Shown here: positions 1 to 43,168 of the stretch, piece by piece | Layout: the number at the start of each line of letters is the position of its first letter | Numbering within the stretch: position 1 is the first letter of the stretch | The notes under the pieces: generated by a model | What the model was told of the DNA's origin: nothing | The model's database searches: none | What the model saw: the letters and a program-made list of their open reading frames with translations, nothing else | Source: Oscillospiraceae bacterium | GTDB taxonomy: Bacteria; Bacillota; Clostridia; UMGS1810 | Direction of reading: 5' to 3' | DNA length: 64,000 nucleotides | Assembly: GCA_015069015.1 (NCBI GenBank) | Contig: SVJK01000001.1 | Location: 21,846-85,845 of the forward strand | Made by a program: the position numbers and the translations under genes

Positions 1-2
1 AA

Positions 3-683
3 AAGGGCATATCTGGCAGAGATGAACTCATATACAATGTGGTTACAGACAACGAAAGAAGAATAAATTATCATAATGCTTTTCAGTATAGCAATTGGAC
101 AGGATATGAATTCATCAAGCCCATTAAGCCCACAGGCTATATAAGTAATATGTTTTACTCTTGTAATAATATGACATCACTCCCCACACCTTTAGATTTT
201 AGTGAAGCGTTCACGGCTGATAATTATGTTGAATCCTATACTTATCGTACAAGTGTATTTGCATATTGCAGAAACCTTGAATTTGTTCCTGACTTAAATA
301 TGAAAGCACTTGGTGGAATAGAGCAATGGTTTCGGCAATGTCGGGAATTGCACACAATTGAGTTATTAAGGGTTAAAAGGGAGACCATATATACCAATAC
401 ATTTTCAGAATGTTCCGCTTTAACAAACATTACTTTTGAAGGTGAAATCGGACAGAGTATATCGTTTAAAGATTCCCCTTTGCTCTCTATAGAAAGTCAG
501 ATAAATATAATAAAGCACCTTGTTGACTTTTCGGGAACTGATGATGCAGGCACAAGAATATTGACAATTCATGCTAATGCGTGGGAAAAACTTAATCAGA
601 CATACAGTTCTCCAATTGAAGTTGGAATATCATTTTATGGCTCTTGGATTTCATATGTGGAATCCCTCGGGTGGAGTATGTAA
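3..683 (+). CDS. Phage-associated leucine-rich-repeat/BspA-like surface protein, 5'-truncated by window edge
   Basis: Frame is open from base 3 to the stop at 683; LRR-like 'CRNLEFVPDLNMKALGGIEQWFRQCRELHTI...FSECSALTNITFEG' pattern; upstream of holin/endolysin-type genes. Confidence 0.6.
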   Translation, partial: KGISGRDELIYNVVTDNERRINYHNAFQYSNWTGYEFIKPIKPTGYISNMFYSCNNMTSLPTPLDFSEAFTADNYVESYTYRTSVFAYCRNLEFVPDLNMKALGGIEQWFRQCRELHTIELLRVKRETIYTNTFSECSALTNITFEGEIGQSISFKDSPLLSIESQINIIKHLVDFSGTDDAGTRILTIHANAWEKLNQTYSSPIEVGISFYGSWISYVESLGWSM

Positions 684-2533: not shown

Positions 2534-2704
2534 ATGTATATCAAAACATCAAAGCCTTCGAATGATTCAGAAAAAACTTATGAATCTATTATAAACTATA
2601 TTGAAAATCTAAAAGAGGAGATTTCTTTCAGGCTGGAAAACCTAAACAAAAAAGCTGATCTTCTTCAGGCGGCTATAAACGAAATGAGAGGTGAATCCCA
2701 ATGA
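2534..2704 (+). CDS. Small coiled-coil hypothetical phage protein (56 aa)
   Basis: Short ORF not in supplied track: MYIKTSKPSNDSEKTYESIINYIENLKEEISFRLENLNKKADLLQAAINEMRGESQ*; ATGA overlap with next gene. Confidence 0.55.
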   Translation: MYIKTSKPSNDSEKTYESIINYIENLKEEISFRLENLNKKADLLQAAINEMRGESQ

Positions 2705-3057
2705 CAACATCTGATGTGATAACAAAGTGTGACAGAATTAAACCAAACGAATATTCCTACGGGCAAAAAAGAGAATGGCTTAACAAAATTGAGTCTGAAA
2801 TCAGGCAATATGCTTCTATGTATTCAGGCAAAAATGCAGACCTTTCGTATACAAACGTTGAAAACCCTGTTTTGTTTTTGGATGACATATATATGGACAT
2901 ATATCTTTATTATATAATATCCATGATTGATCTTTCAAATCAGGAATATGCTCTATACAATAATTCTTCGTCATTTTACAACGACAGACTGAGAAACTGG
3001 CAAAAAAAATATCGCCGGGAGAATATGCCCGAATGTAATGTTTCCATAAATTTATAG
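2701..3057 (+). CDS. Hypothetical phage structural/accessory protein
   Basis: 118 aa ORF translationally coupled to neighbours. Confidence 0.55.
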   Translation: MTTSDVITKCDRIKPNEYSYGQKREWLNKIESEIRQYASMYSGKNADLSYTNVENPVLFLDDIYMDIYLYYIISMIDLSNQEYALYNNSSSFYNDRLRNWQKKYRRENMPECNVSINL

Positions 3058-3069
3058 GAGGTGAATTTT

Positions 3070-4866
3070 ATGCTTCCATTTATGACATCAAAAGTAAAAT
3101 TCAATGAAAAAGCAATTCGGTCTTTCTTGGGACTTAACAAAGGAGAAGATATGTCTGTCGGGGAAATTACAGAAAGTAATAATATGACATCTCTGTACTT
3201 TCCGGCTCTCGGAACAAGAAAAAAAAGGATGACATTATCTGAAACAGAAGGGATAATTAATGGCTTTTCAACATTTGAGGGATATATATATACTTCATAT
3301 ATTCCCGAAAGTAACCGAATGTTTTTAAATTATGACAGTACTGATTATGAATTTACTGAATTCACCGATTCCCCTCCGGAACATATTAGAAGATTTGCCG
3401 CTCTTTCAGACTGTATTCTGATAATTCCTGATAATATCCTTTTTTACACAAACTCCAGAAGTTTTTCAAGGATATGTGTTTCGAATTCGTCAACCATTAA
3501 AAAAGTAAAGGATAAATTTGCATTGGAAACCAATAATTCAAGTGCTATGGATAATGCACAGACACGCTATATTGCGTCATATACCCACAACAGTATTTCA
3601 TACAGAAAAACAAATTATTCCATAAACGGAATTAAGGATTTCTACTATTCAAATTTTGATGTTTCCCTTAAGCCCGGTGATATTATAAACCTTAAAATGA
3701 CGGTGTTTTCAGACAGTGCCGAAGAGGATAATGCTTACAGAGAATATGTCCAAAAAATGAAAAATGGTATCAGTGTAAAAATAAAAGATATTACATCAGT
3801 AACACATAGCACAGTTATCGGTGATATAACTGAAACAGTTGCACTTATCTTCGATGATAATACTATCGACTGCGGCAAATATAAAAGCTTGAAAATATCA
3901 AAAATCATTGTTGAAAGAGGAATGCCTGTACTTGAAAATATCTGTTCTCACAACAACCGCATCTGGGCAACGGCAGGAAATGAAATATATACATCAAAAC
4001 TTGGAGATGCATCGGAGTGGAACGATTTTTCCGTGGATTCACATGGTCTGCTTCCTTATGCCTGCTTTAACACAAAAGCAGAAACCGGCGGTGTCTTTAC
4101 AGGAATCATTGCATATAACAACTTTGTATTTGCTTTCAAAGAAAATGCCATTCATAAAATTTATGGAAATACTCCTGACGAATATTTACTATACACCAAA
4201 ATATGTTCAGGTCTCAAAAACGGTTCGAACTTGTGTCTTTGCACCGGTGCAGACTCTATCATATATCCTTCTTCGGACGGAATATACACATACTCGGACG
4301 ATTTTCCAAAGTGCATATCCGAAAAGTTGAATTATAGTTTTAAACCTGTGGATGCCTGTTCCAACAACAGATACTACTATCTTTTGGCATCTTGTGAAAA
4401 CAAAAACATTCTTCTTGTATACGACCTCCGAAGGAAAATCTGGCATACTCAGGACGTTCCTGAAGATTCCGTCTTTTTAGCATCTCACGGAAAAGACATA
4501 TATCTTGCAACAAAGTCAAAGGTATTGCTGGTTGACTCATCCTTAGAGGATGAAGAGAAAAAAGAAAATGTATTATGGAGTTTCAAAATGGATTTTGACG
4601 ACCGTCTTTTTGATAAAAAGGGGTACGGAACAGTATCACTCAGATACTCTCTTGAAAAAAATGCATCATTTAAGGTAAGAACTATTTATGATGATAATAC
4701 CAAAGGTGCAATTTGCGGAGCAATATATGACGAAAGCCAAACCGGCGGATGCACAATAACCATACCGGTCAAAAGATGCCGAAAGTTTACTCTTGAATTT
4801 TCCGGAAGAGGTTTTTTCCTTCTTAAGGGATTAAAACTCAAATTCTATCAGGGAAGTGAAATGTAA
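3070..4866 (+). CDS. Phage beta-propeller-like structural protein (tail/DNA-stabilization type)
   Basis: AGGAGGTG RBS 5' of ATG 3070; 'HNNRIWATAGNEIYTSKLGDASEWNDF' and 'DSIIYPSSDGIYTY' motifs typical of phage propeller structural proteins. Confidence 0.6.
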   Translation: MLPFMTSKVKFNEKAIRSFLGLNKGEDMSVGEITESNNMTSLYFPALGTRKKRMTLSETEGIINGFSTFEGYIYTSYIPESNRMFLNYDSTDYEFTEFTDSPPEHIRRFAALSDCILIIPDNILFYTNSRSFSRICVSNSSTIKKVKDKFALETNNSSAMDNAQTRYIASYTHNSISYRKTNYSINGIKDFYYSNFDVSLKPGDIINLKMTVFSDSAEEDNAYREYVQKMKNGISVKIKDITSVTHSTVIGDITETVALIFDDNTIDCGKYKSLKISKIIVERGMPVLENICSHNNRIWATAGNEIYTSKLGDASEWNDFSVDSHGLLPYACFNTKAETGGVFTGIIAYNNFVFAFKENAIHKIYGNTPDEYLLYTKICSGLKNGSNLCLCTGADSIIYPSSDGIYTYSDDFPKCISEKLNYSFKPVDACSNNRYYYLLASCENKNILLVYDLRRKIWHTQDVPEDSVFLASHGKDIYLATKSKVLLVDSSLEDEEKKENVLWSFKMDFDDRLFDKKGYGTVSLRYSLEKNASFKVRTIYDDNTKGAICGAIYDESQTGGCTITIPVKRCRKFTLEFSGRGFFLLKGLKLKFYQGSEM

Positions 4867-4899: not shown

Positions 4900-5850
4900 A
4901 TGTCCACATATTTTGACAAAAAGAAACTAATTGACGAAAACAAAGACTTGTATATCTCATCTTACGACAAATCCCTCACCCCTGACGCACTCTCAAAAAT
5001 TGTCGAACAAAAACGAATATATAAAAAGGCTGAGGAATCGGGAGACATCAAAACAATGAAAGAAGCAAATGATAAAGCCAATTCCATAAGAATGAATAAC
5101 GGTGACTATGATGGCGGAAGGGACGGAAGTGAATATAATACAAGTAGCAAAAAATATGAAATCAGGAACTTTTCTTCTTATGAATCCCCGTATCAAAAAC
5201 AAATAGATAACATCACAAAAGAATTACAAAACAAAAAGGGATTTTCATATAACTACGAAGATGATCCTGCATTTAAAGCATATTATGCGCTATATCAAAA
5301 GCTTGGTGATGATGCCTATGAAAGAGCTCTTTACGAAAATGCTGTACGCACAGGAGGAATGGTGAGCACAAGTGCAATTTCCGCCGCAACCGGTGCAAAA
5401 AACCATTATAATTCTATGATAAGTGCCAAAATTCCCGAACTGTTCAGAGATGCGTATTCAAGATATAAAGACGAATACGAGAGGCTTTTTGACACTTTGG
5501 AACAGTTATCAGAGCTTGATGAAAAAAACTATTCCCGATACAGAGATGAAATTGAAGACTTTGAATCTGACAGAGAGTATTATTACAAAAAGCAAAAAGA
5601 CGGTCTTGATCGCATTTTTGATGCTTACAAAACAGACAGCAATCTTGAATATAATATGCAAAGAGATATGAGTGAGCTCGACTACAAAAAAGAAAGAGAC
5701 AGAATTGATGACATCAGACAGGACAAAAAAATTGATGTACAAAAAGAGAAAAATGAGCTGGATGCCATTATTAATCTTGCCAAAGCCATCTATGGAAAAA
5801 CTCCTGTCAGCTCATCTGTCATATCCAACCTTTACTCATTAATCAAATAA
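4900..5850 (+). CDS. Phage coiled-coil structural/ejection-type protein
   Basis: Central 'YQKLGDDAYERALYENAVRTGGMVSTSAISAATGAKNHYNSMISAKIPELFRDAYSRYKDEY' resembles a family recurrent in clostridial podovirus-like prophages; long coiled coil. Confidence 0.55.
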   Translation: MSTYFDKKKLIDENKDLYISSYDKSLTPDALSKIVEQKRIYKKAEESGDIKTMKEANDKANSIRMNNGDYDGGRDGSEYNTSSKKYEIRNFSSYESPYQKQIDNITKELQNKKGFSYNYEDDPAFKAYYALYQKLGDDAYERALYENAVRTGGMVSTSAISAATGAKNHYNSMISAKIPELFRDAYSRYKDEYERLFDTLEQLSELDEKNYSRYRDEIEDFESDREYYYKKQKDGLDRIFDAYKTDSNLEYNMQRDMSELDYKKERDRIDDIRQDKKIDVQKEKNELDAIINLAKAIYGKTPVSSSVISNLYSLIK

Positions 5851-6196: not shown

Positions 6197-6215
6197 AATC
6201 AAGCTGAAACGAAAT

Positions 6216-6289
6216 GGCCGAGTAGTTCAGTTGGTTAGAATGCCAGCCTGTCACGCTGGAGGTCGAGGGTTCGAGCCCCTTCTCGGTCG
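6216..6289 (+). tRNA. tRNA-Asp (GTC anticodon)
   Basis: Acceptor GGCCGAG/CTCGGTC, anticodon arm CCAGC-CTGTCAC-GCTGG, T-arm GAGGG-TTCGAGC-CCCTT; discriminator G. Confidence 0.95.
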
Positions 6290-6686
6290 TAAAAATAACA
6301 CTTACCATATCAGGTGAGTGTTATTTTTTTTGAAATAAAAGGGGCTCGAACCCCGTGGGGGTTTTTGCGTTAAAAAAACGATTGATAATCGTTTTTAGCA
6401 AAAAGGTGCGAAGTCCGGTACCGAATCCCACAGGGATTGGGTGGACGAGCAAGAAAGACGCGTAGCGGATGTGCCCCTTCTCGGTCGTAAAAATAACACT
6501 TACCATATCAGGTGAGTGTTATTTTTTTTGAAATAAAAGGGGCTCGAACCCCGTGGGGGTTTTTGCGTTAAGAAAACGATTGATAATCGTTTTTAGCAAA
6601 AAGGTGCGAAGTCCGGTACCGAATCCCACAGGGATTGGGTGGACGAGCAAGAAAGACGCGTAGCGGATGTGCCCCTTCTCGGTCGT
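6276..6686 (+). repeat. 198-bp tandem direct repeat (2 full copies + partial third) seeded in tRNA-Asp 3' end
   Basis: Copies 6276-6473 and 6474-6671 differ at a single noted position (gttaaAaaa / gttaaGaaa) apart from the tRNA-side junction; ccccttctcggtcgt recurs at 6276, 6474, 6672. Confidence 0.95.
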
Positions 6687-6729: not shown

Positions 6730-8013
6730 TTATTCCATTGCAACTTTGTCTATTTCCTGAAGTATGCGATCTCTTTCTTCAGCGCTCTCTGCTTTAGCAA
6801 GCTGACTCTGAAGTTGAGCAAGTTTTTCGTCTTTTGTCATTTCCTGAGATGAGTTGTCTGGTGATTCATCACTTCCGTTATTCCCGGAATTGTCAGGCGT
6901 GTTTTCTGGAACGTTTGACGGTTCTTGAACATCACCGGTATTTTCCGGATCTGACGGTGTTTCTTCCTCGTCATCTACTACCTTAACTTCAATAGCATTA
7001 TCCATAGCATATTCATATGCAAAACTATCTTTACTGCAAACTATTACCAAATTGTGACAACCAAAAAATGCATCTTCTCCAATTTCTGTCACAGAATCGG
7101 GAATTTCTACTTCTTCAAGTCTTTCACATCCGCTAAATGCTCCATCACCTATGCGAACAAGCTTTTTACTGAAAACTATTTTTTCAAGGGACTCACAGTT
7201 TGTAAAAGCATGATTACCAACTGTTCTCAAATCACTTTTCTCACTCTTAAGTGTAACCTCTTCAAGATATGAACAACCATAGAATGCTCCCTCTCCGATT
7301 ACAGCAACGGAATCTGACAAAGTTACATGTTCGAGATTTGTCAGATCGTCAAATGAATATGAACCAATCGTTGTGATTTCACTACCAATTGTAAGATTTA
7401 ACACTTCTTCCGAATGTTCACTCCAGGGCTTGTTTTCTTCGTTACCGTCAAAGCCATCCATTATAAGCGTTTGATTTTCAACTGTCAAAGTTACTGAATG
7501 AAATCTGAATCCAAGGTCTTCCGACACATCGGAACTTATAACTTTTTCTCGTTTTGCTTTTCTGTTCTTGCTGGTTTTTGTGGTCTTTACAAGACTTGTC
7601 ACAAGATTATTCACAAGATATATTACCCCAAAAGCACCTATTATAATGAGTGCAACAACAATAACCATTACACTCTTTTTATTCTTCTTTTTCCTTCGTT
7701 CTTCTTCTCTTTGCGCTCTTCTCTCTTCAAGAGAACGTCTGAGTGTCTCAGATTGAAGGTCATATTCTCTTTCTTTTTCGAAGCGTTGAGCCTCTTCCGG
7801 ACTTTGGGAATCTTCCTTTATAGAATTAATAATTGCCGCTTTTTCCCTCTCGAAATCTTTGCCGGTTGCAATTTTCACAGTCTCACCTGCCAATGCAGAT
7901 TCCTTTTCTTCATTCTTCTTTTTTGTATCACTTACAGGATAATCGCAGTACGGACAGACAATTTCCGTGTCCGAAATTTCATTTTCACAATTATAACATT
8001 TTATAATATTCAT
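6730..8013 (-). CDS. Zinc-ribbon, TM, LRR_5/BspA-like extracellular protein
   Basis: N-term CYNCENEISDTEIVCPYCDYP; TM; 'LEHVTLSDSVAVIGEGAFYGCSYLEEVTL' repeats. Confidence 0.8.
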   Translation of the reverse strand: MNIIKCYNCENEISDTEIVCPYCDYPVSDTKKKNEEKESALAGETVKIATGKDFEREKAAIINSIKEDSQSPEEAQRFEKEREYDLQSETLRRSLEERRAQREEERRKKKNKKSVMVIVVALIIIGAFGVIYLVNNLVTSLVKTTKTSKNRKAKREKVISSDVSEDLGFRFHSVTLTVENQTLIMDGFDGNEENKPWSEHSEEVLNLTIGSEITTIGSYSFDDLTNLEHVTLSDSVAVIGEGAFYGCSYLEEVTLKSEKSDLRTVGNHAFTNCESLEKIVFSKKLVRIGDGAFSGCERLEEVEIPDSVTEIGEDAFFGCHNLVIVCSKDSFAYEYAMDNAIEVKVVDDEEETPSDPENTGDVQEPSNVPENTPDNSGNNGSDESPDNSSQEMTKDEKLAQLQSQLAKAESAEERDRILQEIDKVAME

Positions 8014-8040
8014 AACCTTATCCCTTTCTTTTCTTTGGCG

Positions 8041-8874
8041 TTATTTATTTTTGTATTTATCCATTTGTTTATCGGTTATTATACATATAATCGCGATTAT
8101 CGCAATTATTGTAGTTGTTAAAAATACTATTCGTCCGTACTTTGTGTCCAAATAAAAATTTTCTTCATCAGTTTCTTCTTTTTCCTCATCAAATCTTACA
8201 GCCATTTTCGAACCGGTATAATCTACATCATACCCATATTCAACCTGCGAAACAAGTTTGTCAACTATCTGACGCTCTTTTGATGTAAGACGAGAAGGGC
8301 AAGATATGGAATAAGTCCACTCTATTCCGGCATAAATCGTATTATATTCATATACATATAATCCGGATTGCCTGTAGGAACTGACGATATACTGTGTGGC
8401 ACTTTCACCGTCCGTCTGATTCCATTTCACCTCAACATCTATGGTTCCGACATTATTACCCTCAAGATAGTCTTTATACTCCTGAAGTACCTTTTCCTGA
8501 TCTTCTTCGTTCTGTACAAGATTGTAGTCATACATATATTTGTCATACTTCTCTTTATCTTCGCCTTCAATATTGGCAAAAACATCTTTACACTTTATAT
8601 ATACATTCCTATCTTTGTCATCAGATGCATAAAAATATATGTCACCGGGTTTCATTACCTGTTCTACCCAATCTTCGTAAGTATGGTTAAATCTTTTGAG
8701 CATTTTCATAAATGCGCTGTCGCATTTTTCAAGAGTACATACCCCGAAATCAGAAGGAACTACAATGTTTCCCAACTCAAACTGCTTAATCTCATATTCT
8801 TGAGCCCCTACGACAGAAGAACAAAACATGAAAAACATTAACAACAGGATAGGCAAATTTCTGATTAATCGCAT
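8041..8874 (-). CDS. Secreted/membrane hypothetical protein with C-terminal TM
   Basis: Signal peptide MRLIRNLPILLLMFFMFCSSVVGAQ; internal start preferred (gaggtg RBS). Confidence 0.6.
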   Translation of the reverse strand: MRLIRNLPILLLMFFMFCSSVVGAQEYEIKQFELGNIVVPSDFGVCTLEKCDSAFMKMLKRFNHTYEDWVEQVMKPGDIYFYASDDKDRNVYIKCKDVFANIEGEDKEKYDKYMYDYNLVQNEEDQEKVLQEYKDYLEGNNVGTIDVEVKWNQTDGESATQYIVSSYRQSGLYVYEYNTIYAGIEWTYSISCPSRLTSKERQIVDKLVSQVEYGYDVDYTGSKMAVRFDEEKEETDEENFYLDTKYGRIVFLTTTIIAIIAIICIITDKQMDKYKNK

Positions 8875-8890
8875 CCGATTCACCTCAAAT

Positions 8891-9535
8891 TTATTCCGCC
8901 TGATAAAAAACAGAAGTAATTCCATCTCCGCAATTGAGATAAGTTACGTTTTCCTCCTCGGACGAAATGATTATAAACAATCCATCCGCAATGTAACTAC
9001 CTATCTCGGTATTTGAACCATCAATTATGGAGTACACCTTTCCATCTGAACTAAATCCATATACTGTTCCGTCTGATGAAATCAGCTCTGCATCAAATTC
9101 CGTCCCCTTAGGCACCTGGCCAAGCAGAAGGTTTTCATCATAGAAAAATATATACTTTCTATCCACAAGTCCGCCTTCATAAGTTGCCTTGTCACCTTTG
9201 AAAGCTAACTTAGTTCCGACAAGATTCCATGTTCCGGTACTTTTTTCTCCATCCTTTTGCATTACATATTCGCCATTTGAATCAATATCTATATACTCTG
9301 CATTCGGATTTGAAGACAAAACAAATTTCCCGTCTATGTTGTTACTGTTTTCCAACTGAATATTAATCATTACAGATATAACAACTGCACACACAATAAC
9401 AAATATCAACGGAATAACAACTTGGTATACCCCAATGTGTTTTTTTGGTATTCTGATTTTTCCACCAAAAAAAGACTTAACATCGTTTGTCGGATTTACC
9501 GCTGTGTCACTTTGTAATTCGTTATGGGATTCCAT
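8891..9535 (-). CDS. Membrane-anchored beta-rich hypothetical protein
   Basis: Single N-terminal TM then 'DGKFVLS...GTWNLVGTKLAF' extracellular domain. Confidence 0.6.
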   Translation of the reverse strand: MESHNELQSDTAVNPTNDVKSFFGGKIRIPKKHIGVYQVVIPLIFVIVCAVVISVMINIQLENSNNIDGKFVLSSNPNAEYIDIDSNGEYVMQKDGEKSTGTWNLVGTKLAFKGDKATYEGGLVDRKYIFFYDENLLLGQVPKGTEFDAELISSDGTVYGFSSDGKVYSIIDGSNTEIGSYIADGLFIIISSEEENVTYLNCGDGITSVFYQAE

Positions 9536-9565
9536 AATTTTCCCCCTATAGATTTTTTGTGCAGA

Positions 9566-10363
9566 TTATTTCTGCCTGTCGTAAAACAAAGGTGCTATAC
9601 CGCTGTCTGTTTCTGAACCGTCCAAATTGTAATCAAACATTAAAAACTTAGTGGTGGCATTGTTGAGCGTTATATTGATGTATTTTCCGTCAGTGTCATA
9701 GTTTCCGGAAAATGCATACTTCAATCCTTTGTTCTCCGAATTTTCATTAGTATCAACAAACTGTGCTTCGGCTTTTCCATCCGATTTTATGTTGATGGTC
9801 ATGGTACCATTTGCCGATGCTGACACAAATGTAGAATCAAATCTTTCCGAAGACCGAACCTCTCCATAATACACAGAATTCCATGCAATAAGCGAATCAT
9901 TAAATATAACATACATATTTGGCTCACTGTCTGTCGGAAATCCTATTACCAACAGAGTGATATTGTCAAATTTTGCATCATCAGACTTATCAGACTGCCA
10001 CCAGCCCGACACACTCATTCCATCCATTGTTTCTGCTGTAACTGTTCCGTCAGGGAAAAGTTGCATAAAAGAATATGCTTTGGAAGGATCTCTCATATCG
10101 GCTTCACCGCCAAGAACATATGTTCCGGGAATATCCGTATTCAGTGTTTGTCTAATATGATCTGACTCCTTTTGTACCTTTTCCAACTGTTGTGTCATAT
10201 ACTCATCCATCATCTGTTTCTGTTTTTCTTCTTCTCTTGATTGCTTAAAATGTCCCAAGATATATACCGTTGCAATTAATATGATAACAACAACTGCTGA
10301 TAAAACTATTATGATTTCATTTCTCTTTCGAGATTTGCTCTTATTAGCCTTTCCTCCTGACAT
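9566..10363 (-). CDS. Membrane-anchored beta-rich hypothetical protein
   Basis: Single TM and 'GTYVLGGEAD...SGWWQSDKSD' domain. Confidence 0.6.
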   Translation of the reverse strand: MSGGKANKSKSRKRNEIIIVLSAVVVIILIATVYILGHFKQSREEEKQKQMMDEYMTQQLEKVQKESDHIRQTLNTDIPGTYVLGGEADMRDPSKAYSFMQLFPDGTVTAETMDGMSVSGWWQSDKSDDAKFDNITLLVIGFPTDSEPNMYVIFNDSLIAWNSVYYGEVRSSERFDSTFVSASANGTMTINIKSDGKAEAQFVDTNENSENKGLKYAFSGNYDTDGKYINITLNNATTKFLMFDYNLDGSETDSGIAPLFYDRQK

Positions 10364-10440
10364 TTTATTTCTCCTTTATCTGACAACTTACTATACATTA
10401 TCATAATACTATTTATTTTACCATAATCTATTTTAACACA

Positions 10441-10490
10441 ACAATGACTTATTTGCAAGAGGAAAATACCATTTACAAACAAGTCATTGT
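10441..10490 (-). terminator. Intrinsic terminator downstream of MATE gene
   Basis: acaatgacttatttg / caaacaagtcattgt stem. Confidence 0.65.
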
Positions 10491-10522
10491 GCTTTGCTTA
10501 AATGTGACAATATTATGCCGAT

Positions 10523-11902
10523 TTATATATTCAATTGAGTTCTCCCAAATACAACCTTTTTATATGTTACAATAAAAATAAGCCAAAGGGCTATTATAGT
10601 AACAAGCCAGGACAGAGGATATACAGCGTATACAACACTAAGAGTCGGGTACAGTTTAAATATGGTCATAATCCATACCACCCTTAAAACACAAACTCCG
10701 AACACAGAAACAATCATAGAGCTGAATGATTTTCCCATTCCTTTCAGACATCCGCTGGAAACAGTCATTACCGTAGCAAGGAAATGGCAGGAGAAAACCC
10801 ACATAAGTCTTTCACACCCAATTTTTACTGCCTCCGGACTGTCGGTGATAAAGAATCCCACAAGAGTATGCCTTGAAGGAATGATTATCAAAGACAGTAT
10901 GACTGTCATTATAGCGCCGAGAAGATTTGCCTGATAAAACACAGTTTTAAGTCTTTCATATTTTTTTGCACCTGTATTCTGACCTGCAAAAGTCATTCCG
11001 GCACTTGAAAATCCCTCTGCCACAAAACCCCCATACATTTCCATTGTAAGTGCCGCACCGTTTCCTGCAACGGCTGCACTTCCAAAAAAGTTTATGGATG
11101 ACTGCATAACAACATTTGAAAGACTGAACATTGCACTCTGAATTCCCGCAGGAATCCCAAGAACCATTATCCTTTTGAATCTGTTAAAGTCGATACGGAT
11201 GTCTCCCGGTGAAATTTTGCAACAGTTATCACTTTTTATGAGAGTGTAGAGAACAAGTGAAGATGCAATAACGTTGGACATTACTGTTGCGATTGCAACT
11301 CCGTCAGTATCCATACCAAAACCTATTACAAAAACAAGATTCAAAATAACATTTGCAATTCCGCCGATTGCAAGATAAATAAGCGGGCGCTTAGTGTCCC
11401 CCATGGTTCTTAGTATCCCGCTTCCGAAATTATAAAGTAAAACAAAAGGTGCTCCGCAAAAATATATCTTCATATACTTTGCAGCATATTCAATGTTCTC
11501 CTTTGGAGTTCCCATAAGTTCAAGGATCGGTTTTGAAACAATAAAGCCCACTACACCAACTACTACTCCGCTGTATATTGCGGTGGCTATGGCAGTATGA
11601 GCCAATTCATTTGCTTCTTTTTCGTCACGGGCTCCAAGAGCTTGTGAAATTGCAACAGAAGCACCTACAGAAAGACCTATAAAAAGGCATATTATAAGGT
11701 TTGTAAGTGACGCGGTTGCCGTTACTCCGCCAAGAGCATCAGCACCTGCATATCTTCCCACAACCACATTGTCCGCAGTGTTAAATGCCTGTTGCAAAAT
11801 TCCGGAAAGAATTACCGGGATTGTGAAAAGTATCATTTTTTTCAGCATAGGTCCTTTTGTCACGTCAAGAATTTCGCTGTCTCTGTTTTTCCCAAAAAAC
11901 AT
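10523..11902 (-). CDS. MATE family efflux transporter
   Basis: 459 aa polytopic; 'NTADNVVVGRYAGADALGGV', 'LGIPAGIQSAMFSLSNVVMQSSINFFG'. Confidence 0.9.
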   Translation of the reverse strand: MFFGKNRDSEILDVTKGPMLKKMILFTIPVILSGILQQAFNTADNVVVGRYAGADALGGVTATASLTNLIICLFIGLSVGASVAISQALGARDEKEANELAHTAIATAIYSGVVVGVVGFIVSKPILELMGTPKENIEYAAKYMKIYFCGAPFVLLYNFGSGILRTMGDTKRPLIYLAIGGIANVILNLVFVIGFGMDTDGVAIATVMSNVIASSLVLYTLIKSDNCCKISPGDIRIDFNRFKRIMVLGIPAGIQSAMFSLSNVVMQSSINFFGSAAVAGNGAALTMEMYGGFVAEGFSSAGMTFAGQNTGAKKYERLKTVFYQANLLGAIMTVILSLIIIPSRHTLVGFFITDSPEAVKIGCERLMWVFSCHFLATVMTVSSGCLKGMGKSFSSMIVSVFGVCVLRVVWIMTIFKLYPTLSVVYAVYPLSWLVTIIALWLIFIVTYKKVVFGRTQLNI

Positions 11903-38524: not shown

Positions 38525-38716
38525 TCAAATGGAATCATATTTTTTCATTAGTTCCTTATAGAATTTACATATTTTAAAATTCCAACTATTGCAGTGCATA
38601 CTGAGCCAGCAGGCCCTGTCTTCAGGCGAAGGAAAGTGTATGACCTTTGCCTCGCACACAAGTTGTTTGTTTTTCATATCCACATAAAAGGGACATTTAG
38701 CGTAATATTTCATCAT
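38525..38716 (-). CDS. Cys-rich small phage-type hypothetical protein
   Basis: 63 aa, 'CPFYVDMKNKQLVCEAKVIHFPSPEDRACWLSMHCNSWNFKICKFY'. Confidence 0.55.
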   Translation of the reverse strand: MMKYYAKCPFYVDMKNKQLVCEAKVIHFPSPEDRACWLSMHCNSWNFKICKFYKELMKKYDSI

Positions 38717-38723
38717 ATCCCCC

Positions 38724-39065
38724 TTACCGGATCTTGTGAAGGCTTATGTATCTTCCGTAGGTTATTCCTTCTTCTTTACTTTTTGTTACCGCATCATAGA
38801 GCGTAACTTTCATAGGAATATGCTTTACATTTTTGTATACATAACCAAGTTCTTTCATATAATTCTTTCTGCACTCCTCACGGCAGAATTTTTTTCTTCG
38901 TCCAGATGTGAACTTTTCTGCACACCATTGGCAAAGATACATTTTTTCTTTTTTTGCTTTTTTCTTTGAATAAAGATATGCACATCTTTTTTTGCAAAAT
39001 TTTCTTGCATTTTTATCTGTGGTAAACTCCTTTTTGCAATATGGACATATTTTTATCTGTTTCAT
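38724..39065 (-). CDS. Zinc-finger small protein (two CxxC motifs), phage-type
   Basis: 'ICPYCKKEFTTDKNARKFCKKRCAYLYSKKK...CQWCAEKFTSGRRKKFCREECRKNY'. Confidence 0.65.
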   Translation of the reverse strand: MKQIKICPYCKKEFTTDKNARKFCKKRCAYLYSKKKAKKEKMYLCQWCAEKFTSGRRKKFCREECRKNYMKELGYVYKNVKHIPMKVTLYDAVTKSKEEGITYGRYISLHKIR

Positions 39066-39074
39066 TGTACCTCC

Positions 39075-39176
39075 TTAGATCGATGCTTCAATAACACATC
39101 CCAGCATATACATACCGAGAGTGAACGCCATTAAAACCTTCTCGTTTCTGAAAAGTAATCCTACTTTTTGTTTCAT
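39075..39176 (-). CDS. 33-aa small hydrophobic peptide
   Basis: MKQKVGLLFRNEKVLMAFTLGMYMLGCVIEASI*; ggaagga RBS; divergent from repressor; not in supplied ORF track. Confidence 0.5.
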   Translation of the reverse strand: MKQKVGLLFRNEKVLMAFTLGMYMLGCVIEASI

Positions 39177-39288
39177 ATGAAACACATCCTTCCATGTAAA
39201 TTACTGATTTTTCTCTCTGACACACAATGCCCGTGTCAATAATGTTTCGATATCGACACATTTATATTAACACGGTTTTGTGTCTTTG

Positions 39289-39341
39289 TCAACACATTTT
39301 TTCAAAAAAGTGTTGATTTTTTTAAAATTTTGTGTTATGAT
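39289..39341 (+). promoter_or_regulatory. Repressor promoter with overlapping inverted-repeat operator
   Basis: TTGATT-17-TATGAT (39313-39341); TCAACAC(39289-39295)...GTGTTGA(39310-39316) inverted repeat over the -35. Confidence 0.65.
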
Positions 39342-39370
39342 AGATACAAACAAAGGAAAGGAAGGGTCAA

Positions 39371-40009
39371 ATGGCAACTCTCGGAGAAAGAATTAAGGAA
39401 CTCAGAAAACAAAACGGATATACCCAGACAGAATTCATTAATATTTTAAAAGATAAATATGATTTAAAGGCAGACAGAGTGATGCTCAGTAAGTGGGAAT
39501 GTTCAAAACAAACTCCCTACATTGAAACACAGAAATGCATAGCAGATGCATTCGGTGTTACTCTTGACTATCTCAACGGAATTGAAACAAAACCCAATTT
39601 GAAACTCAAAAACGTGTCACCTGCAGTTGAAACAAAAATCCCCATGTATGGTAAAATTGCCTGTGGTTCACCCATTGAATGTAATTCTGATTTTGACATC
39701 GAAACCATCAGTGGAGGAAAAGTTGACGGAGATTTTTGCGTCATTGCAAGGGGCGACAGCATGATAAATGCCCGCATTTTTGACGGCGATATTGTCACAA
39801 TAAGAAGACAAAGCACCGTTTCAGATGGTGAAATTGCCGCTGTTGCTATAGGTGATGAGGCAACACTTAAAAGAGTGTATCACATTGAAAACGGTGTTAT
39901 GCTGGTCGCAGAAAACCCTGCATACAAACCCATGGTATTTGTGGGCGAAGAATGTGCAAATGTTGTGATTCTCGGAAAAGCCGTTTCCATGCACACAATT
40001 CTTTCATAA
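39371..40009 (+). CDS. XRE-HTH + S24 peptidase (LexA/CI-like) repressor
   Basis: HTH 'LGERIKELRKQNGYTQTEF'; 'KIACGSPIE' cleavage-type site; 'ARGDSMINARIFDGDIV' Ser and 'EATLKRVY' Lys. Confidence 0.92.
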   Translation: MATLGERIKELRKQNGYTQTEFINILKDKYDLKADRVMLSKWECSKQTPYIETQKCIADAFGVTLDYLNGIETKPNLKLKNVSPAVETKIPMYGKIACGSPIECNSDFDIETISGGKVDGDFCVIARGDSMINARIFDGDIVTIRRQSTVSDGEIAAVAIGDEATLKRVYHIENGVMLVAENPAYKPMVFVGEECANVVILGKAVSMHTILS

Positions 40010-40044
40010 TACATTTCGTAAAAAAACAAATTAATAATTCCAAA

Positions 40045-40074
40045 AACCCCTGAAACAACTGCGTTTCAGGGGTT
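40045..40074 (+). terminator. Intrinsic terminator after repressor gene
   Basis: aacccctgaaac-aactgc-gtttcaggggtt. Confidence 0.85.
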
Positions 40075-40181
40075 TTGCCATTTCGGAAATAAAAGAGAAC
40101 AGATATGATATAATTGATATGCGACAAAATATATTTATCTAAAATTCTCTTTTAATAAAACATATAAGAAAGGAAGATTGT

Positions 40182-40619
40182 ATGAATAGTTCAGATAACA
40201 CCATCCCGACAAAGGATGAAAATATAAACCCTGAATTTCAAAACGATGCTGATGCATCTGCTGAGAGAGAAGAAAAAATCCTCAGGCTTTCTGAGAGAAT
40301 GCTTGAAAAAATCAGTTCTGCCATTGATGAACTGTCTCTTTATCAGGCAAAGGAAAAAGAAAGAGTGAAAGAAGTTGAATATGATGAAGAAAACAAGAAG
40401 GTCATAAAAGAAACGAATGTTGAAAGTGAAAAAATTGATGTTGTTGAATCACTGATTGACACAGGTGCATTAAAACAACTTGTTTCAACTTTAAAAGACA
40501 TAAAAGATATCCATGTGGGGCTTTGTCAGAAATCGGATTATGACGGAGAAGAATCGGGAGTAATTATGATTTCACCCATAGATGAAAATTTTGAAGAACA
40601 TGAGGTAGGAAAGGAATGA
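40182..40619 (+). CDS. Phage terminase small subunit-like protein
   Basis: Position directly before TerL with ATGA overlap; 'DTGALKQLVSTLKDIKDI' pattern seen in Firmicutes TerS-like proteins. Confidence 0.65.
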   Translation: MNSSDNTIPTKDENINPEFQNDADASAEREEKILRLSERMLEKISSAIDELSLYQAKEKERVKEVEYDEENKKVIKETNVESEKIDVVESLIDTGALKQLVSTLKDIKDIHVGLCQKSDYDGEESGVIMISPIDENFEEHEVGKE

Positions 40620-42052
40620 ACGTGATCTGGACACCTCAAAAAAAACAGGAAATTTTTCAGTCAAGACCTGAATATGAAGCACTCTATGGCGGGGCTGCCG
40701 GAGGCGGAAAATCAGATGCACTTCTCACAGAAGCACTCCGTCAGGTACATATTCCCCACTACCGTGGTCTTATCCTCAGAAAAACATACCCCCAACTTTC
40801 AGAACTCATTGACAGATCAAGAGAACTTTATTCAAAAGCATTTCCTACGGCAAAATATAACGAAACAAAACACGTGTGGGTTTTCCAATCGGGTGCCAAA
40901 ATATATTTTGGAGCAATGCAGCACACCTCCGACAGAATTAACTATCAGGGAAAAAGATATGATTTTATTGCCTTTGACGAACTCACCCATTTCACCTGGG
41001 ATGAATATTCCTATATGTTTTCAAGAAACCGTCCGTCGGGAAAAGGAACAAGAGTTTACATCCGCTCCACAACAAACCCCGGTGGAATAGGTCACGGATG
41101 GGTGAAAGAAAGATTTATAACTGCCGCACCGCCTCTCACTCCCATTGAGACAAAAATGCAGATTGCAGGCCCTGACGGAAAACTCAGAGAGGTTACACGA
41201 GACCGGATTTTTGTTCCGTCGACTGTTTTTGACAACCAAAGACTTTTAGAAAACGATCCGGGATATATTGCAAATCTATCAATGCTTCCCCACAAGGAGA
41301 GACAGGCTCTTTTATATGGTGACTGGGATTCCTTTTCAGGTCAGGTGTTCACCGAATGGAAAAACGATCCCGCCCACTACAAAGACCGCTGTTTCACCCA
41401 TGTTATTGCTCCCTTTGAGATTCCGAAAACATGGAAGATATACAGAGGGTTTGACTTTGGCTATTCAAAACCCTATGCCACCGAATGGATTGCAACGGAT
41501 CACGACGGGAGGGTGTATGTTATTGCAGAACTCTACGGCTGCACCGATACTCCTGACACAGGAGTAAAAGACACTCCCATGGAAATTGCAAGGAAAATCA
41601 GACAGATTGAAGAAAGTCATCCGAATCTTAAAGGAAGAAAAATCATCGGAATTGCAGACCCTGCCATTGCAAAGGCTGAAACGGGGCAATCAATTTCTGA
41701 TATGATGGCAAAAGAGGGTGTGTTTTTTGATTTCGGAGACCATCAGAGACTCCCCGGCAAAATGCAGTTTCACTATCGGTTTGCCTTTGACGAAAACGGA
41801 ATTCCCATGATGTATGTCTTTTCAAACTGCAGACATTTTATAAGGACAATTCCAAATCTCATATATGACGACTCAAATGTTGAAGACATTAATACAAAAT
41901 CCGAAGACCACATCTATGACTGTGTGAGATATGTCCTTATGGCAAATCCCATAAGTCCCAGGAAGAATTCACTTTCAGAAATCAAGGATAGTGAAGATCC
42001 TTTAGACCTTCACTGCGATAATCTTTCAAGGTATAGTTTTTTTGAGTTTTAA
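40616..42052 (+). CDS. Phage terminase large subunit
   Basis: Walker A 'GGAAGGGKSDALL', 'YDFIAFDELTHF', nuclease region 'RGFDFGYSKPYATEW...GIADPAIA'; full length. Confidence 0.95.
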   Translation: MNVIWTPQKKQEIFQSRPEYEALYGGAAGGGKSDALLTEALRQVHIPHYRGLILRKTYPQLSELIDRSRELYSKAFPTAKYNETKHVWVFQSGAKIYFGAMQHTSDRINYQGKRYDFIAFDELTHFTWDEYSYMFSRNRPSGKGTRVYIRSTTNPGGIGHGWVKERFITAAPPLTPIETKMQIAGPDGKLREVTRDRIFVPSTVFDNQRLLENDPGYIANLSMLPHKERQALLYGDWDSFSGQVFTEWKNDPAHYKDRCFTHVIAPFEIPKTWKIYRGFDFGYSKPYATEWIATDHDGRVYVIAELYGCTDTPDTGVKDTPMEIARKIRQIEESHPNLKGRKIIGIADPAIAKAETGQSISDMMAKEGVFFDFGDHQRLPGKMQFHYRFAFDENGIPMMYVFSNCRHFIRTIPNLIYDDSNVEDINTKSEDHIYDCVRYVLMANPISPRKNSLSEIKDSEDPLDLHCDNLSRYSFFEF

Positions 42053-42094: not shown

Positions 42095-42130
42095 ATATTT
42101 TGTATAATTATGAAGAACGGAAATGATATT

Positions 42131-43168
42131 ATGTCTAAAAAAATCAAAATCGGAAATACATTTATCGGCGGCGGAGAAGAAGTTAAAATCCAGTCTATGT
42201 GCAATGTGAAAACATCTGATGTTAAAAAATGCACAGAGCAGATTCTTTCCCTTGAAAAGGCAGGATGCGAAATTGTGAGAGTGGCAGTTCCCGATATGGA
42301 AAGTGCCGTGGCAATTGAGAAGATAAAAGAAAACATTCACATCCCCATAGTTGCAGACATTCACTTTGACTACCGTCTTGCTTTGGAGGCAATGGAGAGA
42401 GGAATTGACAAAGTGAGAATAAATCCCGGAAACATCGGCTCGGAAGAGGGGGTTAAGGCTGTCGCAAAAATGGCAAAAGCAAAAAATATTCCCATAAGAA
42501 TCGGCGTTAATTCAGGCTCCATTGAAAAGGAAATCCTTGAAAAGTATTCCCATCCAACTCCTGAAGGAATGGTTGAGAGTGCAAAAAAACATATTGATAT
42601 GCTTAACCGCTATGACTTTGACGATATTGTAATTTCCTTAAAATCAAGTTCCGTTCCAATGACCATAGATGCCTACAGACTTATGAGCAAAACCTTTGAC
42701 TATCCTCTCCACCTTGGTGTGACAGAGGCAGGAACATTTCTTGGAGGAACAGTTAAATCTGCCATAGGAATAGGCTCACTTTTAAAAGACGGAATCGGCG
42801 ATACCATAAGAGTGTCTCTCACCGATGATGTTGAAAAAGAAGTTTTGGTTGCAAAAGAAATTTTATCTGCTCTTGAAATTCGCAGACTCGGTGCAAAACT
42901 TGTGTCCTGCCCAACCTGCGCAAGAACAAGTATTGACCTTATCGGTCTTGCAAACGAGGTTGAAAAATATCTCCAAAAGATTTCAAAACCCATCACGGTT
43001 GCTGTTATGGGATGCGTGGTGAACGGTCCCGGAGAGGCAAGAGAAGCAGACATCGGAATTGCAGGGGGAAAAGGAGAAGGCCTGATTTTCAAAAAAGGTC
43101 AGATTGTGAAAAAAGTTAAAGAAGAATTCTTACTTTCTGAACTTATAGAAGAAATAGAAAAAATGTGA
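42131..43168 (+). CDS. ispG: 4-hydroxy-3-methylbut-2-enyl diphosphate synthase
   Basis: '[36 protein letters not shown]...[12 protein letters not shown]...[22 protein letters not shown]'. Confidence 0.96.

Follow-up and report, generated by a model that had tools for sequence, protein, structure and literature searches.

Packaging and regulation genes of a dispersed phage-derived system, probably a gene transfer agent, in an Oscillospiraceae genome

Very few gene transfer agents (GTAs) are known from bacteria other than Alphaproteobacteria; among gut Firmicutes, FpGTA is the first for which particles have been shown. According to the main text of the report describing it, Faecalibacterium prausnitzii ATCC 27766 yields particles of ~40 nm with ~9-kb DNA and FpGTA I and II proteins (Borodovich et al. 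2026, Nat Commun 17:2046, PMC12946183), and faecal particles hold random Faecalibacterium DNA of 8.4–8.9 kb; its authors leave a role like that of PBSX open, and delivery of DNA to other cells is not shown for FpGTA in that text (PMC12946183). Here, we describe a related system from a 64,000-nucleotide stretch of an Oscillospiraceae genome (the window; C88:21846–85845, contig SVJK01000001.1 of GCA_015069015.1), which belongs to a 2.15-Mb, 101-contig metagenome-assembled genome (MAG; 86% complete, labelled G000). An island between nadE and ispG-polC, locus A, encodes an S24 repressor, a small terminase-like protein (TerS), a full-length large terminase (TerL) and three divergent small proteins. 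In our assessment, locus A is probably the operon for packaging and regulation of a podovirus-like phage in the FpGTA family that has been domesticated and dispersed, and that most likely makes GTA particles.

The virion gene set of G000 is divided over three loci flanked by housekeeping genes, A and B on contig C88 and C on contig C10. It resembles FpGTA in its homologous TerL (64%), portal, scaffold, major capsid protein (MCP) and downstream virion genes, in a TerS without a helix-turn-helix (HTH) domain, in lysis and tail genes that lie apart, in its podovirus-like character and in structural operons free of replication genes. The gene set of the FpGTA family is present, but the layout differs: FpGTA has TerS-TerL-portal-scaffold-MCP in one 10.5-kb operon plus a second operon of 5.5 kb, whereas here the genes are split over A, B and C, which are scattered and together span ~15.6 kb, set against the 8.4–8.9 kb of DNA packaged in FpGTA. 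Compared with the main text on FpGTA, in which neither an S24 repressor nor an operator array nor a common promoter cassette is described, the three-locus split, the repressor with its operator array, the single promoter cassette before all three operons and a regulon that includes replication genes are new, the chromosome-wide regulon being the novel part. Particles have been seen for FpGTA, whereas the window system is known from its genes; because of the homology to FpGTA and the headless TerS, it too likely makes particles that carry DNA.

Measured by the GTA criteria of Kogay et al. 2022 (PMC9662315), G000 holds Caudoviricete-derived structural genes that may suffice for particles (P22-type portal, TerL, TerS, scaffold, MCP, connector, internal-virion and lysis genes), endogenised at three loci on two contigs. 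For vertical inheritance, presence throughout the clade and clade monophyly fit, while the divergence between two genomes (G001 and G004) and one conflict between the TerL and PolC trees, both described below, do not. Among the options of the original prediction were a domesticated, GTA-like packaging system and, separately, a piece of a prophage that had become dispersed; with three conserved, intact, single-copy loci, both are supported and here coincide.

Every gene predicted for locus A, and the housekeeping genes on either side of it, was confirmed at its coordinates. On the plus strand lie the S24/LexA-type repressor (39371–40009; Peptidase_S24, 5e-23; PHROG repressor, 6.7e-35), the TerS-like protein without an N-terminal HTH (40182–40619), a profile homologue of HTH-bearing TerS proteins in G007, L162, L165 and L127, and TerL (40616–42052; Terminase_6N, 1.4e-15; phrog_979, 7.5e-65), in which the Walker A (25), Walker B (114) and nuclease (278, 344, 430) motifs are intact. 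A PF03354 search of G000 for TerL found nothing because TerL here belongs to another family, and phmmer of TerL against the PDB gave no match. The minus-strand genes encode a hydrophobic peptide (39075–39185; 36 residues from a GTG start, 33 from an internal ATG), a 113-residue protein (38724–39065) and a 63-residue protein with five cysteines (38525–38716), an open reading frame with a homologue in G004 (50%) and no matching Pfam or PHROG family. The 113-residue protein carries the pattern CxxC...CxxxC twice (Cys 7/10/24/28 and 45/48/61/65), forming two zinc-ribbon- or treble-clef-like Cys4 sets; the cysteine region matches HNH/zinc PHROGs, with phrog_1271 at 2.9e-9 over the zinc region. In G001, G002 and G004, this protein has homologues at 41–52%, and the hydrophobic peptide has homologues (47–58%) at the equivalent position. 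Neither TerS nor the three small proteins fall in a Pfam family.

The prediction that the island lacked portal and capsid genes held within 38525–42052 itself; a P22-type portal gene lies just upstream of the window, and a phage tail and lysis operon, overlooked in the original prediction, occupies the window's first 5.85 kb. The portal gene (C88:18057–19799), ~40 kb upstream of locus A, opens locus B, which continues on the plus strand with a Prp protease, a 558-residue protein, a leucine-rich-repeat (LRR) protein, a putative holin, an endolysin, a 118-residue connector-like protein (B118), a 601-residue internal-virion-like protein (B601) and a 316-residue protein (B316), and ends ~33 kb before locus A begins. 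The 558-residue and LRR proteins are fibre-like; of the latter, a 242-residue BspA-type protein (L027:2801–3529; LRR_5, 2.4e-6), the C-terminal part lies in the window (1–683). The 108-residue putative holin (978–1304) is proposed from its position and N-terminal hydrophobic segment; it matches phrog_13632 (9.8e-9), a family of unknown function, and is conserved in G001, G002 and G004. The endolysin (1671–2522) is an M15 peptidase (phrog_894, 6e-44; Peptidase_M15_3, 2.9e-25), and B118 (2701–3057; phrog_12105, 7.1e-20), the internal-virion or tail protein B601 (3061–4866; phrog_511, 2.6e-27) and the virion-operon protein B316 (4900–5850) all have counterparts in FpGTA I loci, with B316 also conserved in G001, G002 and G012. 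The search for a capsid gene elsewhere in the genome, suggested in the original prediction, led through relatives: a major head protein (phrog_1357, 1e-91) lies beside TerL in some of them, and its orthologue in G000 (78%) was traced to contig C10, where locus C comprises the scaffold, the capsid protein and a 96-residue protein (C96). The separation of terminase, portal and capsid into three loci is shared by G000, G001, G002 and G004; in G005, G007 and G012, the terminase and capsid genes (A and C) are joined and the portal gene lies apart.

These findings bear on whether the island at 38.5–42 kb is a phage satellite, a capsid-forming element like a phage-inducible chromosomal island (PICI), as had also been proposed. 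Such an element would account for packaging genes and a divergent repressor set in one compact module, yet the integrase and attachment sites typical of a PICI are missing: no integrase or replication gene occurs in loci A, B or C, and the junctions of locus A share no direct repeat of at least 10 nt, in agreement with the original prediction. The site moreover varies across species, and portal, capsid and lysis genes, instead of being taken from a helper, lie in the host genome itself behind promoters of the same type. We reject the satellite reading as extremely unlikely.

That phage DNA came to lie between nadE and ispG through a scaffold misjoin, a possibility raised in the original prediction, is barely credible; this reading was likewise rejected. 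It draws on the junction of TerL with ispG, which occurs in G000 alone; against it, the unit of repressor, TerS, TerL and small genes recurs with intact flanks in three other separately named MAG assemblies, locus A adjoins pbp1A in G004 as it does in the window, and its composition is that of the host (GC 0.382 against 0.383 for the window, with host-like base composition and codon use). Locus B abuts ispG in G002, the site that locus A occupies in the window, and locus A of G002 has as neighbours homologues of genes that adjoin locus B in the window (L014; window 6730–11902 and 42110–43168). We considered that loci A and B had directly traded places between G000 and G002 and discarded the idea; the surrounding order is too complex for a swap.

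In a scan of GTDB genomes, 80 loci were kept, with TerL at 57–86%. Profile searches found in many of them, Faecalibacterium included, an S24 repressor and the order TerL-portal-(Prp)-scaffold-MCP-C96-B118-B601-B316. The 64% TerL comes from an FpGTA I-like locus of F. prausnitzii ATCC 27768 (L092), a strain listed among those with FpGTA I and II in the main text of the FpGTA report (PMC12946183). Contiguous prophages of the same family in IMG/VR share the order TerL-portal-Prp-scaffold-MCP, with TerL at 63–66%; in contrast to the dispersed, headless window system they are contiguous, and L170 has a serine recombinase and an HTH-bearing TerS, L182 a DnaB helicase. Their existence indicates that the parent was a temperate podovirus-like phage. 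Many short 'viral' contigs in IMG/VR (L162–L241) also carry FpGTA-family terminase loci, and some of these may be host chromosome with GTA operons. The loci described here extend the FpGTA family to ruminant-gut Clostridia and show that a system of this type can break into independent operons and still be kept.

The small terminase of the window has lost its DNA-reading domain. Its profile matches HTH-bearing proteins in G007, L162, L165, L127, L131 and L192, and the HTH is kept on TerS in G007, L162, L165, L170 and L127, with Pfam HTH matches confined to the N-termini of the HTH-bearing proteins. Headless TerS sequences, which start at the coiled-coil region, are found in five same-genus genomes, in G012 and in Faecalibacterium. 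AlphaFold2 models (mean pLDDT 73 each; pTM 0.43 and 0.32) agree, with three N-terminal helices (8–17, 22–29, 33–42) before a long helix in the G007 protein and none of the three in the window protein. The window TerS therefore has what is expected of a GTA-type small terminase, an oligomerisation region and no N-terminal HTH; the TerS of RcGTA also lacks the HTH, which its authors proposed as a mark of GTA terminases (PMC6854486). RcGTA (Rhodogtaviriformidae) further resembles the present system in being endogenised at multiple loci, its gp1 being the HTH-less TerS, but it differs in an unrelated siphovirus-like virion lineage, in its GafA/CtrA regulators and in its phylum. A headless TerS beside HTH-bearing sisters offers a sequence marker to tell GTA from prophage.

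Retention was assessed in a clade of eight genomes (six of the window's genus plus G007 and G012), compared with eight other genomes of the family. Portal and MCP are single-copy in all eight clade members and TerL in seven, with no stop codons in any; G003, in which TerL is missing, is only 74% complete, and in G002, G003 and G012 MCP is matched in pieces, across contig ends or segments. TerL has one copy in G000 and matches at 84–86% in four of five same-genus genomes and at 76–80% in two further genera of the family. Outside the clade the set is absent from the eight family genomes, except for a contiguous prophage relative (43–48%) in G009. The eight-genome clade is supported at 100/100 in the PolC tree, and the TerL tree supports the family clade at 98/100 and the genus at 100/99. 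Within the genus, pairwise ratios of nonsynonymous to synonymous substitution (dN/dS), rough values as dS is near saturation, are 0.04–0.09 for TerL, 0.05–0.10 for MCP, 0.07–0.10 for portal and 0.04–0.10 for the repressor, comparable to housekeeping genes (PolC 0.06–0.09, IspG 0.12–0.14).

These data support, at the level of sequence, a largely vertical retention of three loci that are intact, single-copy and specific to the clade. They do not describe terminase genes confined to one strain with decaying relatives, the outcome named beforehand as contrary to the original prediction, and the comparison of TerL dN/dS across relatives that it had called for places TerL at housekeeping level. That the loci are functionless, decaying remnants of one old prophage is accordingly very unlikely, and we set this reading aside: scattered parts cannot yield infectious phage, and the endolysin and fibre-like genes evolve fast, but portal, MCP and TerL are free of stops in every genome under selection like that on housekeeping genes, and the three operons are conserved together with their promoters and operators.

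Several observations weigh against the GTA reading. For G001 and G004, the proportion of synonymous differences (pS) is 0.22 in PolC but 0.72 in TerL, 0.69 in portal and 0.55 in MCP; ligA next to locus B is 96% identical between them, portal 72%, and hisS-aspS next to locus C 82%. The TerL and PolC trees also place G007 and G012 differently, and inheritance is therefore not purely vertical and clock-like. Either the two genomes are mosaic, or the phage loci are exchanged or diverge faster. Searched against the PDB, the TerS structure models had no significant match to a solved TerS, so that the identity of TerS rests on synteny and sequence homology and our structural claim is limited to the presence or absence of the N-terminal HTH, which G007 still bears. 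In G005, G007 and G012, TerL was found with neither the S24 repressor nor the divergent operon adjacent, and the control proposed below is therefore not universal. Finally, this lineage is known from MAG genes alone, with A and B on one contig and C on another, and particles and transfer are inferred. Separately, G001 and G004 (L057/L058, L052/L053) are ~95% identical in nucleotides at PolC and ligA yet show tracts of 70–82% around the phage loci, which may reflect mosaicism or contamination.

The dispersed operons share promoters. The element GTAGGCGAAA-N18-TANAAT is common to the portal and scaffold operons of G007 and G012, and a genome search with this gapped pattern returned five places in G007 and seven in G012, against none for a reversed-pattern control. 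The places beyond those that defined the pattern include, in G012, sites before the otherwise missing B118-B601-B316 virion operon, two tyrosine recombinases and a DnaC-like loader, and, in G007, sites before a Lin1244/DnaB_2 replisome organiser and a tyrosine recombinase; one match on G007:C7, with no nearby gene downstream in the right direction, was dismissed as chance. In the genus of the window, a cassette made of a terminator-like hairpin, TTTCRTTTTTT, an AAGAA-type element and TATAAT stands before each of the TerS, portal and scaffold operons. Its copy in locus A (40046–40122, plus strand) comprises hairpin, T-tract, AT-rich element and TATAAT (40109–40114), and belongs to alignment A2. 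RNAalifold found no consensus hairpin on that alignment; we therefore claim the hairpin from single sequences and used a sequence-only model.

That model, R1, was built on 13 cassette sites (the locus A copy, a training site, scores E = 6e-10) and searched in the six genus genomes. Five new sites, at 1e-15 to 3e-9, lie directly upstream of RepA_N+DUF6017 initiators (two in G001, one in G003, two in G004), and another precedes the scaffold operon of G005 (8e-8); single sites stand before a DUF4417 gene, a Phage_Mu_F-barnase/barstar pair and SLH proteins. The best match in eight genomes without the system was 0.0018, and the G012 scaffold promoter reached 1.5e-9. Because the genus cassette sites are AT-rich, R1 E-values are rough, and the enrichment of replication genes is the stronger argument for a regulon. 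In G000, R1 is significant for A, B and C alone; weaker matches below these three training sites (E 0.004–0.015) proved on inspection to be chance, and RepA_N was not found there, nor in G005 and G007. In all, blind motif searches picked up a further virion operon from one relative and, from five, genes for replication initiators or helicase loaders. A decamer, ACACAATGCC, common to the A and C promoters was too weak to use (2–11 occurrences per genome, against 0–4 for the reversed pattern). The promoter motif lets the whole regulon, unsuspected members included, be read from sequence.

It is conceivable, and we put this forward only tentatively, that the regulon is chromosome-wide in action: scattered replication genes of phage and plasmid type, RepA_N, Lin1244/DnaB_2 and DnaC-like, may fire with the capsid and packaging operons, so that the DNA of the cell is amplified at several sites before it is packed into GTA particles. 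Such a GTA would bring its own multi-site amplifier, and headless and HTH-bearing TerS in sister genera would mark a phage-to-GTA transition in progress. The run-off replication of BaGTA in Bartonella offers a parallel for phage-type replication tied to a GTA; there, however, a GTA cluster is joined by a phage-derived origin, whereas here initiators of several families stand under the GTA promoter, and no sequence relation was shown. Both the path from prophage to GTA and amplification of host DNA before packaging are now testable.

The same replication genes could instead belong to a still-autonomous scattered prophage, whose initiators and tyrosine recombinases excise, replicate or reassemble a phage genome. 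In its favour, the shared promoter stands before tyrosine recombinases, a Lin1244/DnaB_2 replisome organiser and a DnaC-like loader in G007 and G012, the cassette precedes RepA_N initiators in G001, G003 and G004, and contiguous relatives with a serine recombinase or DnaB exist. The structural operons, by contrast, lie on different contigs amid unrelated housekeeping genes, with no attachment repeats at locus A, and the type of replication gene varies by species, RepA_N being absent from G000, G005 and G007. A temperate prophage is contiguous, with integrase, replication genes and attachment sites; loci A–C are not so arranged, and we hold this reading to be improbable. Tyrosine recombinases of ~279 residues (L258:1341–2180, L261:12121–12960, L257:5665–6492; G000:C86, C11) occur in several copies per genome, some of them with the 34-bp promoter of the virion operons.

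The barnase site relates to a further alternative, that the capsids pack random DNA and act as an antibacterial weapon without gene transfer, as a PBSX-like or toxin-delivering killer particle. PBSX of Bacillus subtilis is, like the system proposed here, a Firmicute phage-like particle that packs random host DNA, but it comes from one contiguous locus, is long-tailed and kills. In favour of this alternative, a Phage_Mu_F-barnase fusion and barstar stand behind the same cassette in G001, and the PBSX-like role is left open for FpGTA in the main text cited above; against it, the pair is so placed in one genome only, and loci A–C of G000 showed no barnase-type gene and no tailocin-type sheath or tube genes. 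We consider a killer particle unlikely. The pair itself (L328:624–1425, G001:C86), the fusion followed by barstar, is possibly a particle-delivered toxin with its immunity protein.

For the GTA that we favour, locus A suggests how the dispersed operons could be controlled. The repressor keeps the S24 serine (GDSM), lysine (LKR) and C-G site, and its self-cleavage residues are apparently intact. The 185 bp between it and the small genes (39186–39370), a divergent promoter region, contain seven half-sites of the form RACAC/GTGTY, which are putative operators for the S24 repressor. In shuffled sequence the figure is 0.26, and none of 2000 shuffles attains seven (the motif was picked after inspection of the sequence); the array is kept in four genomes of four species. 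The repressor would keep the system silent through this array; on DNA damage, RecA-stimulated self-cleavage of the repressor would release the small genes of the divergent operon, after which the dispersed cassette promoters would be turned on by the zinc protein or a comparable factor, so that loci B and C would be controlled by loss of repressor together with production of an activator. Phage zinc-finger late activators exist, for example P2 Ogr, and the 113-residue zinc protein is a candidate activator because of its position and this analogy. Capsids would then assemble, the headless TerS would let TerL start on any host DNA, filling would proceed by headful, and holin and endolysin would lyse a minority of cells.

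Two further observations deserve mention. A 1039-residue SLH/F5_F8 secreted protein stands behind the cassette in G001 and G004 (L326:659–3778, L329:4876–7995), possibly as a surface receptor or through unrelated promoter capture. A tRNA-Asp lies 365 bp beyond the end of locus B (window 6215–6670), and its last 16 bp open a 198-bp unit that is tandem-repeated at 99%; G005 has a tRNA-Asp sequence in antisense orientation immediately upstream of its portal gene, and in Faecalibacterium, tRNA-His and tRNA-Arg follow the FpGTA I operon. The tRNAs near these loci are possibly traces of an ancestral integration site.

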